A DNA stretch of 64,000 nt from positions 62,001-126,000 of the forward strand of contig JAKAGV010000015.1 of assembly GCA_021815405.1 (NCBI GenBank). Reading direction: 5' to 3'. Positions 8,226-63,639 of this stretch are shown here, piece after piece. The first letter of the stretch is position 1. The number at the start of each line of letters is the position of its first letter. The notes below the pieces were generated by a model, which saw only the letters and a list, made by a program, of their open reading frames with translations, was not told where the DNA came from and ran no database searches. Source of the stretch: Bacteroidota bacterium (lineage in GTDB: Bacteria > Bacteroidota > Ignavibacteria > Ignavibacteriales > Ignavibacteriaceae). A program made the translations under genes and the position numbers.

Positions 8226-8363
8226 TTAATTAACTCACGTTACGCACATGTCATGCTGAACTTGATTCAGCATCCCAAAAATGCTGAAAAATGAGATTCC
8301 GAACCAAGTTCGGAATGACAAAGTAAATTAGATCATTAATTGTGCGTAACGTAAGTTAATTAA
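8226..8363 (+). repeat. Dispersed inverted-repeat element, copy A
   Basis: The outer ends are a near-perfect inverted repeat (TTAATTAACT, then CACGTTACGCACA on the left; the reverse complement TGTGCGTAACG, then TAAGTTAATTAA on the right). Inside are two hairpins: ATGCTGAA-CTTGA-TTCAGCAT and ATTCCGAA-CCAAG-TTCGGAAT. The same plan recurs at 21528, 40311, 42229, 63367 and 63497. It is the most diverged of the forward-oriented copies, and the 100-bp interior has no coding capacity. Confidence 0.88.
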
Positions 8364-21527: not shown

Positions 21528-21657
21528 TTAACTGAAGCTACGCAAAATAATGTTTTTGTCATTCCGACTTGTTTCGGAATCCCCTTTTTGCATTGTTTTT
21601 ATATGCTGAAGCAAGTTCAGCATGATAATTTAATATTCATGTGGAACTTCATTAACT
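21528..21657 (-). repeat. Dispersed inverted-repeat element, copy B
   Basis: Reverse orientation relative to copies A, C and D. Outer ends are GTTAACTGAAGCTACGCA on the left and GTGGAACTTCATTAAC on the right, a degenerate inverted pair. The internal hairpins are ATTCCGA-CTTGT-TTCGGAAT and ATGCTGAA-GCAAG-TTCAGCAT, so the complementary CTTG/CAAG loops are kept although the spacer has changed. It lies between atpD and the end of the surface operon. Confidence 0.85.
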
Positions 21658-40310: not shown

Positions 40311-40446
40311 TTAATTACTGAGGTTATGCAATTGTCATGCTGAACTTGTTTCAGCATCTAAAAACAGCTTAAAAATAAAGATTCCGAAACAAGTTCGGAA
40401 TGACAAATGGATCATTTTATTCATTTTGCGTAACTTCAGTTATTAA
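40311..40446 (+). repeat. Dispersed inverted-repeat element, copy C
   Basis: Left end TTAATTACTGAGGTTATGCAA, written in two parts as TTAATTACTG and AGGTTATGCAA; right end TTGCGTAACTTCAG then TTATTAA. Internal hairpins are ATGCTGAA-CTTGT-TTCAGCAT and ATTCCGAA-ACAAG-TTCGGAAT. From TGTCATGCTG to the right arm it is identical to copy D (42229-42361), in the same orientation. Confidence 0.92.
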
Positions 40447-42228: not shown

Positions 42229-42361
42229 TTAGTAACTGAAGTTACGCAATTGTCATGCTGAACTTGTTTCAGCATCTAAAAACAGCTTAAAAATAAAGAT
42301 TCCGAAACAAGTTCGGAATGACAAATGGATCATTTTATTCATTTTGCGTAACTTCACTAAA
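42229..42361 (+). repeat. Dispersed inverted-repeat element, copy D
   Basis: Outer ends TTAGTAACTGAAGTTACGC and GCGTAACTTCACTAA. The interior is identical to copy C, including both hairpins with complementary loops. It starts 32 bp after the stop of the membrane-protein gene. Confidence 0.92.
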
Positions 42362-63200: not shown

Positions 63201-63365
63201 GGCGCCGGCGCAGATGTAATGAAAAGAATTGCCGCACCAATGCTTGGCGGTGTTGTTACATCCGTATTGATGGAACTTGCAGTCTACCCGGTGATTTATT
63301 ACTTATGGAAATCTTATGAACTTAAGAAGCAATATAAACTTGAAGGTAAACTTTTAGAAAATTAA
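60213..63365 (+). CDS. cusA: Heavy-metal RND efflux pump (CusA/CzcA family, Cu/Ag type)
   Basis: 1050 residues, full length, with 12 membrane segments: one near 14-31, five in 335-500, one near 527-550, five in 865-1030. The fourth-segment proton-relay motif is GGIAIAIGAMVDAAIIMIEN. The periplasmic part includes TMPIKTRTDMLSTGIKTPVG, which in CusA holds the methionine ligand pair for Cu(I)/Ag(I). The Cus type is favoured over CzcA by these residues and by the neighbouring multicopper oxidase. It pumps metal out through CusB and the TolC channel. Two copies of the dispersed inverted-repeat element follow the gene. Confidence 0.95.
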   Translation: MLEKIIEYSVKNRFLIILAVVFLMGWGIYSLYTIPVDAIPDLSDVQVIIYTKYEGQSPQIVEDQVTYPLTTALVSVPGAKVVRGYSFFGYSLVYVIFKDGTDLYWARSRVLEYLNYASKRLPAGVVPTLGPDATGVGWVYEYALTSNKRSLADLRTIQDWYLKYQLSTVPGVAEVASVGGFVKQFQVTVDPAKLLAYNIPLSDVEMALKKSNNDVGGETIEMGESEFMIRGLGYIKTLQDVENIPVKFDKKTNTPVYIKDIANVTFGPEMRRGAAELDGKGEAVGGIIVMRYGENALQTIQAVKKKLAELKQGLPSDVKITTVYDRSGLIERAINTLRDKLIEEILIVALVCILFLMHARSAFVAIFTLPTAILMSFIVMKMQGINANIMSLGGIAIAIGAMVDAAIIMIENAHKHIEHDNLKPPEQRRDRWQLIIESAKEVGPSLFYSLLVITVSFIPIFTMEAQEGRLFKPLAFTKTYSMAAAAILSITLVPVLMGYWIRGRIMPEEKNPINKFLIKIYHPVVDFVIGHWKYVLLTTIVLLGITIIPFSSIGSEFMPPLYEGDLLYMPTTLPGISITKATEILQQTDKIIASFPEVKRVFGKVGRAETATDPAGLDMMETTIMLKPESEWPKGMTPKKLIDQLDQAVHFPGVTNSWTMPIKTRTDMLSTGIKTPVGIKISGPNLDTLQSIGEKIEAIMKTIPGTLSAYAERTVGGNYVDININREEAARYGLTIQDVEDVIQSAMGGMNVTTVIEGLERFPLNLRYGREQRDNIEDLKRVLVPTPTGAQIPMEQLADFTIHKGPMMIKTEGTRPNAWVYVDLKTSDIGSYVENAQRIVAKNIKLPAGYSLIWSGEFEYMQHAEKRLMIVIPMTLFIIFLILYLNTKSLKKVAIIFLAVPFSLIGTFWLLYILGYNLSVAVWVGIIALAGLDAETGVVMLLYLDVAYKEWQDKGMMRGIKDLIDSIHHGAVKRVRPKIMTASVIVAGLVPIMWSNGAGADVMKRIAAPMLGGVVTSVLMELAVYPVIYYLWKSYELKKQYKLEGKLLEN

Positions 63366-63366
63366 T

Positions 63367-63500
63367 AATTAACTGAAGTTACGCAAAATGAATAAAATGA
63401 TCCATTTGTCATTCCGAACTTGTTTCGGAATCTTTATTTTTAAGCTGTTTTTAGATGCTGAAACAAGTTCAGCATGACAATTGCGTAACTTCAGTAATTA
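63367..63500 (-). repeat. Dispersed inverted-repeat element, copy E
   Basis: Reverse complement of copies C and D, nearly exact. Ends are TTAACTGAAGTTACGC and GCGTAACTTCAGTAATTA. Hairpins ATTCCGAA-CTTGT-TTCGGAAT and ATGCTGAA-ACAAG-TTCAGCAT. It begins 2 bp after the cusA stop. Confidence 0.92.
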
Positions 63501-63639
63501 AGTGAAGTTTCGCAAAGAAATGAATTTGTCATTCTGACGTGATTCGGAATCTCTTTTTTGCGCAATTTTTAGATGCTGATCCCGAAAGCTTTCGGGACAG
63601 CATGACATTTATAAGCTCTTGCGCAACTTCAGTAATTAA
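63497..63639 (-). repeat. Dispersed inverted-repeat element, copy F, diverged
   Basis: Abuts copy E, sharing the ATTA at the junction. Ends are ATTAAGTGAAGTTTCGCA and GCGCAACTTCAGTAATTA. The first hairpin is ATTCTGA-CGTGA-TTCGGAAT and the second, ATGCTG-TCCCGAAAGCTTTCGGGA-like, has replaced the usual loop by a longer CCCGAAAGCTTTCGGG stem. Confidence 0.85.

Follow-up and report, generated by a model that had tools for sequence, protein, structure and literature searches.

Introduction

Among the closest described counterparts of the element reported here are the CGTC REPs. In the sections of Di Nocera 2013 (PMC3733652) that deal with them, these repeats have no dedicated transposase and heterodimers prevail in some families; avoidance of palindromes is already suggested there as a reason for their different stems, and whether other transposases move CGTC REPs was left open in 2013. 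A MITE that holds a REP has a precedent in QMITE2 of Coxiella, as far as the description of that element goes (PMC5896051). RepRanger (PMC12306157) covers Bacteroidota genomes; its main text makes no mention of 'transposase', 'RAYT' or 'MITE'. As to insertion sequences (IS), the relevant parts of PMC2266710 characterize the IS4 subgroup ISPepr1 by a YREK motif, 5'-CT ends, duplications of 7-8 bp, AT-rich targets and a length of 1500-1600 bp, and the IS701 family by a 4-bp duplication, other ends, a larger size and a YREK tyrosine that is mostly absent.

Here we compare with these systems a family of inverted-repeat elements from one window, that is, the whole stretch of 64,000 nucleotides of an Ignavibacteriaceae genome that was analysed. 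A search of the open-access literature on the REP sequence, Bacteroidetes REPs, Ignavibacteria MITEs and later usage of CGTC REPs found no description of the element.

Results

Six copies in the window

The preliminary description had proposed six copies that share outer arms and hold two hairpins each, and all six (A to F) are present in the window where it had placed them. They represent one element in opposite orientations, A, C and D against B, E and F, and the limits given below for the copies exclude the target duplications.

8226..8233, unstranded: target-site duplication TTAATTAA, left of copy A
8234..8355, plus strand: copy A, MITE of subfamily 2 (SF2), 122 bp, arms CTCACGTTACGCA / TGCGTAACGTAAG
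8250..8274, plus strand: GCT-type REP hairpin GTCATGCTGAACTTGATTCAGCATC of copy A
8295..8319, minus strand: TCC-type REP hairpin of copy A, reading GTCATTCCGAACTTGGTTCGGAATC on the minus strand
8356..8363, unstranded: target-site duplication TTAATTAA, right of copy A
21532..21652, minus strand: copy B, degenerate, 121 bp, without an exact target duplication
40318..40439, plus strand: copy C, MITE of subfamily 1 (SF1), 122 bp, flanked by TTAATTA / TTATTAA, which agree at 5/7 positions
42236..42357, plus strand: copy D, SF1, 122 bp, final base altered, without an exact target duplication
63366..63372, unstranded: target duplication TAATTAA, left of copy E
63373..63494, minus strand: copy E, SF1 reversed, 122 bp
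63495..63501, unstranded: target duplication TAATTAA between copies E and F, common to both
63502..63632, minus strand: copy F, 131 bp, with the top of the GCT hairpin replaced by a TCCCGAAAGCTTTCGGGA palindrome
63633..63639, unstranded: target duplication TAATTAA, right of copy F

The TTAAT-like edges that had been noticed earlier are indeed there, but they lie outside the element proper and are its target-site duplications. TAATTAA recurs to the left of, between and to the right of copies E and F, which indicates that one copy landed beside the other as a tandem insert; the left duplication of copy E directly adjoins an AcrB-family ORF ending at 63365. Loops with CTTG and CAAG occur in five of the six copies, the exception being copy F, in which one hairpin top is another palindrome and the remaining loop reads CGTG. 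No Rfam family matched the window when gathering thresholds were applied.

A high-copy family with common ends

From the 4.97-Mb host genome we collected 87 distinct, non-overlapping copies, both hairpins being present in 84 of them; they came from loci with arms matched almost exactly or with an exact REP tag, a choice that favours intact copies. Inverted arms of 13 bp enclose the hairpin GTCATGCTGAACTTGTTTCAGCATC and, beyond a spacer of roughly 20 nt, a second hairpin in inverted orientation, with GTCATTCCGAACTTGTTTCGGAATC as its reading on the opposite strand. The element spans 112-165 bp (122 bp in 68 of the 87 copies) and contains no transposase gene. Subfamily SF1 comprises 45 copies with arms CTGAAGTTACGCA and SF2 24 copies with arms CTCACGTTACGCA, leaving 18 others; among 39 copies of SF1 there are 93 pairs of identical sequence.

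With up to one mismatch, the arm TGCGTAACTTCA was found at 85 + 88 places in the host genome, compared with 17 + 13 for the reversed-pattern control, and exact matches to CTGAAGTTACGCA numbered 45 + 49, compared with 0. All 87 copies have 13-bp terminal inverted repeats with at most 3 mismatches per arm, which follows from the construction of the set; the inverted pairing of arms at a spacing of 107-108 bp was first seen from one-arm matches and is free of that bias. A covariance-model search of the genome and its relatives, as suggested in the preliminary description, matched at least 61 places in the host genome and gave matches, many of them low-scoring, in 25 of 59 genomes. The same description had named an absence of further copies in the genome as counting against the family, and the 87 copies collected settle this point in the family's favour.

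The copies without the GCT + TCC pair are L030, which has an unrelated interior, and L021 and L229, which carry CCC-type REPs. The ends thus tolerate more than one cargo in the host genome, since at L030 1500-1664, and with an arm at L026 173, they are associated with several palindromes that form an unrelated interior. Element lengths change in steps of about 10 bp, from 112 bp (L002, L017) through 122 bp in most copies to 132 bp (L046, L048), and some copies move 10 bp between linkers while the total stays near 122 bp. These steps possibly reflect helical phasing between the ends; elements of other genomes do not clearly show them. Two candidates for long elements, L111 and L112, with arms 1.7 and 3.6 kb apart, were rejected, as they appear to be ordinary genes flanked by separate MITEs.

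Target-site duplications and an unoccupied junction

Of the 87 copies, 66 lie between exact direct repeats of 6-9 bp (52 of 7 bp, 8 of 8 bp, 5 of 6 bp and 1 of 9 bp). When left and right flanks were shuffled among copies, about 7.9 of 87 retained repeats, nearly all of 7 bp because the target sequences are alike. The duplications are AT-rich, typically TTAATAA, and are positioned immediately outside the arms; no exact duplication is present at 21 of the 87 copies, window copies B, C and D included. Same-ended MITEs from named genomes likewise have exact 7-8 bp repeats in 40 of 52 cases, compared with about 1.6 in shuffles. The unit is a MITE with 13-bp terminal inverted repeats and target-site duplications, and the family, which had been described as mobile-looking, is mobile and of high copy number.

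We further compared aligned fcl-gmd loci from eight genomes. The element is present at this junction in G000 and absent in the congener G012 (L341), the only locus that reads through both flanks without it; at L342 (G007) both coding ends align and the junction is shorter, and the remaining loci (L343-L346, L348, L349) are uninformative. The comparison of empty sites envisaged in the preliminary description therefore yielded an unoccupied junction in G012, but one too diverged to serve as a base-exact empty site.

Hairpins of the CGTC REP type

The hairpins had also been described as REP-like and common in Bacteroidota. Consistent with this, the GCT-type 25-mer, allowing one mismatch, is present in 59 of 395 Bacteroidota genomes, the host included, with 0 for the reversed control among the rows listed; in other genera the hairpin was found without the MITE arms at the loci that were read. 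Each hairpin has a stem of 8-9 bp beginning with AT and a loop of 4-5 nt, and the two are arranged head-to-head. The tag is TGTCAT in most aligned host copies and CGTCAT or CGTCAC in several other genomes, and the tails after the stem are mostly CTA, CCC, CTC or CTT, CCA being mostly absent. The interior, a head-to-head pair of TGTC-tagged hairpins, fits the CGTC REP superfamily as characterized in the relevant sections of PMC3733652.

To evaluate stem covariation, hairpins were defined solely by tag, GAA/TTC core and spacing, with no constraint on the 3' side. Complete pairing at the four variable stem positions is seen in 159 of 176 hairpins of the phylum and in 81 of 98 of the host. The phylum set contains eight fully paired stem types; the GCT type served as bait for this set, and its independent part consists of the other types.

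Around the 94 GCT-type hairpins outside the host genome, none of the 58 nearest-inverted-neighbour relations involves a second GCT type (CCC 48, TTC 6, TCC 4), and 44 of 46 direct neighbours are of the GCT type. The inverted relations are to the nearest hairpin up to 80 nt away on either side, and one lying between two hairpins may count twice; they come from 15 genomes and are not independent, since arrays in G436 and G443 supply many. For 52 of the 94 no inverted 3' neighbour was detected. Assembly or instability could be an alternative cause of the missing perfect palindromes.

Loops, folding and placement

In the preliminary description the complementary loops suggested that the two hairpins might kiss or refold as one stem, and that selection might maintain this. 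The corresponding rival explanation is that selection keeps the pair as an RNA/DNA switch, working by kissing or refolding, that serves the host in, for example, termination or mRNA stability. Some of our observations agree with it: the stems covary between REP types, as given above for phylum and host, and copies lie closer to the 3' ends of genes (median 59 bp) than to the 5' ends (median 177.5 bp). The latter value comes from a crude ORF caller and 62 of the 87 copies, the other 25 being too close to a locus edge for placement; 38 of the 62 lie between codirectional, 12 between convergent and 12 between divergent genes, and none inside an ORF. Both loop motifs are kept in 52 of the 87 copies, so complementarity has not been lost from most of them, a loss that the preliminary description had named as weighing against its own reading; one motif is kept in 30 and none in 5, and the 35 copies in which one or both exact motifs are missing speak against a maintained switch.

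Recent copies bear on the same question. CTTGT/ACAAG is kept in 28 of the 39 SF1 copies of 122 nt, and a compensating second change is seen in 0 of the 11 others, one of which is misaligned (69 differences). In the 33 copies that remain after omitting the misaligned copy and five with at least 10 differences, change rates were 0.66% for the stem, 0.86% for the spacer, 1.05% for the arms and 1.82% for the loops. Loops changed most (6/330 versus 13/1518 in spacers, p = 0.13), and neither stem, arm nor loop rates differ significantly from that of the spacer in these 33 copies. This even decay and the uncompensated loop changes leave selection on loop complementarity unsupported, and we regard a host switch as very unlikely. 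Since both hairpins belong to one REP superfamily and are inverted relative to each other, CTTG comes to face CAAG.

The folding part of the earlier suggestion fared better. For copies A, C, D and E, but not for B and F, the most stable structure predicted is a single long stem (DNA z-scores -7.1 to -9.3), so that refolding into such a stem is physically plausible; selection for kissing or for refolding is unsupported.

Insertion sequences with the same ends

Exact arms were found in 23 of the 59 genomes searched, the host genome included. Complete IS with exact 13-bp ends are present at L109 (1175 bp), L110 (1074 bp) and L182 (1200 bp), those at L109 and L110 being in two congeners with one DDE transposase gene in each element, and IS with related ends are present at L184, L186 and L187; L182, L184, L186 and L187 come from 30 profile-matched loci that were inspected. 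Both ends of the L184 element are matched by the left SF2 arm over 13 bases; for the right SF2 arm the match extends over 10. L110 and L182 lie between exact 7-bp duplications (TAAATAA and AATATAA, respectively), and the flanks agree in part at L109, L184 and L186 (6/7) and at L187 (5/7).

The candidate IS have CT ends, 7-bp duplications and AT-rich targets. Their transposases match Pfam DDE_5 and DDE_Tnp_1, and a YREK motif was read in 7 of the 8 attempted, L185 being the one left unread. Against NCBIfam IS701_2 (cut-off 250 bits), the L109 transposase scores 328.8 and that of L110 185.9, below the cut-off. We class the putative partner as 'IS4/IS701-like', since the NCBIfam model bears the IS701 name and the features seen in the sequences would point to IS4 subgroup ISPepr1, for which the length is too short.

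A profile built from the two transposases gave matches in 38 of 146 genomes, many of them weak or partial, with E < 1e-70 in nine genomes. In the host genome it gave 0 matches from 14 candidates, and none of the four host matches to DDE_Tnp_1, the one family examined in this way, has the arms; the host assembly consists of 31 contigs, and the IS could sit in a gap. An IS with the same ends, which the preliminary description had proposed to look for, was therefore found in relatives (L109, L110 and L182) but not in the host genome itself. BLAST of SF1 and SF2 against the six IS revealed nothing in common beyond the ends and chance-length matches, so the MITE interiors are not internal deletions of these six IS.

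MITEs with the same ends but without GTCAT hairpins also exist, for instance L118. In total, 51 stretches have the same ends, in records titled Ignavibacteria, Ignavibacteriales, Bacteroidetes, Bacteroidota and, for 15 of them, one Thiomargarita MAG. The Thiomargarita MITEs (L138, L142, L144, L145, L148, L151, L156, L157, L161, L164, L165, L167, L172, L175 and L176) have identical 13-bp ends and AT-rich interiors without GTCAT hairpins, which hints at IS transfer between phyla or at a mis-binned MAG. In genome G221 (L246, L277-L280), REP heterodimers appear to lie within a different outer inverted repeat (AATGACGAGT ... ACTCGTCATT in some copies), which would make them a second composite of the same design.

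These findings bear on the idea that the arms are merely a preferred palindromic target for REP pairs and are themselves immobile, as for the CGTC dimers of Halothiobacillus, which the pertinent section of PMC3733652 places inside 41-bp palindromes. Duplications lying outside the arms contradict it; in addition, the arms are shared by whole IS and by MITEs that lack GTCAT hairpins (L118 and those of Thiomargarita). We find this idea scarcely credible.

Tyrosine transposases

Inverted REP pairs are the layout of REPINs in the corresponding part of PMC3116915, and the preliminary description had pointed to a REP-associated tyrosine transposase (RAYT) as one possibility. The element would then be a REPIN or BIME moved as a single strand by this HUH enzyme, its arms being an extra part of the REPIN. 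The host genome has five Y1_Tnp matches. Two ordinary MITE copies lie near one of these (L035), at 209 bp on its upstream and about 1.3 kb on its downstream side, and the long hairpin predicted above for four of the six window copies would suit single-strand transposition. Direct 7-bp duplications are not expected from Y1 transposition, yet they are found at the copies, and the two MITEs at L035 each have a separate 7-bp duplication of their own. The other four of the five host loci (3.3 kb each) contain no such hairpin. In 10 REP-rich genomes with 52 Y1 matches, the GTCA hairpin was found at 0 of the 30 loci inspected (flanks of up to 1.5 kb). A tyrosine transposase is therefore not the likely mover, and we judge the REPIN or BIME explanation most unlikely; a same-ended IS of the DDE type is a more probable one.

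Two further associations were seen near these genes. At L035 1290-2100 an IS200-like gene lies amid repeats containing AATAAGGTAATAAGGT and adjoins an intact MITE copy, and at L033 copies of a CACGAAGTGATGCAA repeat (35, 199, 1124, 1288 and 2121) surround an IS200-like gene, a possible different repeat-transposase association.

REPs nested within REPs

At L216 and L218, the TCC hairpin of SF2-type copies has a third REP, GTCATCCCGGACTTGATCCGGGATC, in its loop, together with short flanking sequence. The three nested elements (L216 199-353; L218 195-351 and 1572-1726) have distinct 7-bp duplications. The REP-in-REP hairpin also occurs without MITE arms in view at L214 (395, 1610 and 3373, minus strand), once with a base change. 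Hairpin tops are exchanged in further copies and in another genome. The REP-in-REP arrangement suggests insertion of single hairpins without target duplication.

Discussion

Taken together, we consider it highly probable that the element is a non-autonomous MITE that is moved in trans by an IS4/IS701-like DDE transposase and carries a captured REP pair. The 13-bp ends (CTGAAGTTACGCA, or CTCACGTTACGCA in the second subfamily) would be recognised in trans by the DDE transposase of the IS, and insertion into AT-rich, TTAATAA-like sites would create the target duplication of 7 bp (6-9). The interior would be a captured head-to-head pair of two different TGTC/CGTC REP hairpins, which would be passengers and not IS-derived, and the loop complementarity would be a by-product of the inverted pairing of related REPs. 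The IS transposase presumably moves the MITE, judging from the congeners; the partner IS has probably gone from the host genome, and the REP pair appears to be unnecessary for transposition.

A broader and rather unlikely reading is that CGTC REPs spread in two ways, as paired cargo within DDE-transposon ends and as single hairpins inserting precisely into hairpin loops. If it were true, the different-stem rule for inverted neighbours would be a general safeguard against long perfect palindromes, and the loop-inserted REP-in-REP would be direct evidence of an undescribed single-hairpin mobility.

New here are the CGTC heterodimer as MITE cargo, the candidate IS partner and the REP-in-REP nesting. 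One lineage supplies a concrete candidate mover for CGTC REPs, namely a DDE transposase whose substrate would be IS ends with a REP heterodimer between them, and a clean data set for asking why inverted REP neighbours differ in stem. If the proposal is confirmed, some REP families are passengers, and not RAYT substrates or host regulators.

Among known systems, the cargo resembles E. coli BIMEs, in which inverted REPs of different unit types are paired. REPINs (PMC3116915) are likewise inverted REP pairs. Both systems are linked to RAYTs, and neither is known to have IS-type ends flanked by 7-bp duplications. QMITE2 of Coxiella burnetii is also a MITE (150-190 bp, 7-11 nt repeats) that holds a REP and lies mainly in 3' untranslated or intergenic regions; compared by description only, it differs in its host and in carrying a GTAG REP in place of a CGTC heterodimer (relevant parts of PMC5896051).

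The candidate IS share with ISPepr1 the YREK motif, 5'-CT ends, 7-8 bp duplications and AT-rich targets, and satisfy its end consensus at 7 of 8 specified positions; they differ in length (1074-1200 versus 1500-1600 bp) and in that their best NCBIfam model is IS701_2 (subgroup data from the pertinent part of PMC2266710). With IS701 they share the transposase profile NCBIfam NF049921, matched above cut-off by one of two, but the 7-bp duplications at L110 and L182 contrast with the 4 bp published for that family, as given in the same part of PMC2266710.

There is also a close likeness to the CGTC REPs as the relevant sections of PMC3733652 present them: an unpaired TGTC/CGTC tag, an 8-bp stem starting with AT, a 5-nt loop, head-to-head heterodimers, no adjoining transposase gene, and occurrence in Bacteroidetes and Chlorobi among others. 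In contrast to those repeats, the dimer described here lies inside IS-type ends with 7-bp duplications, a same-ended IS is identified, and the CCA tail is mostly missing.
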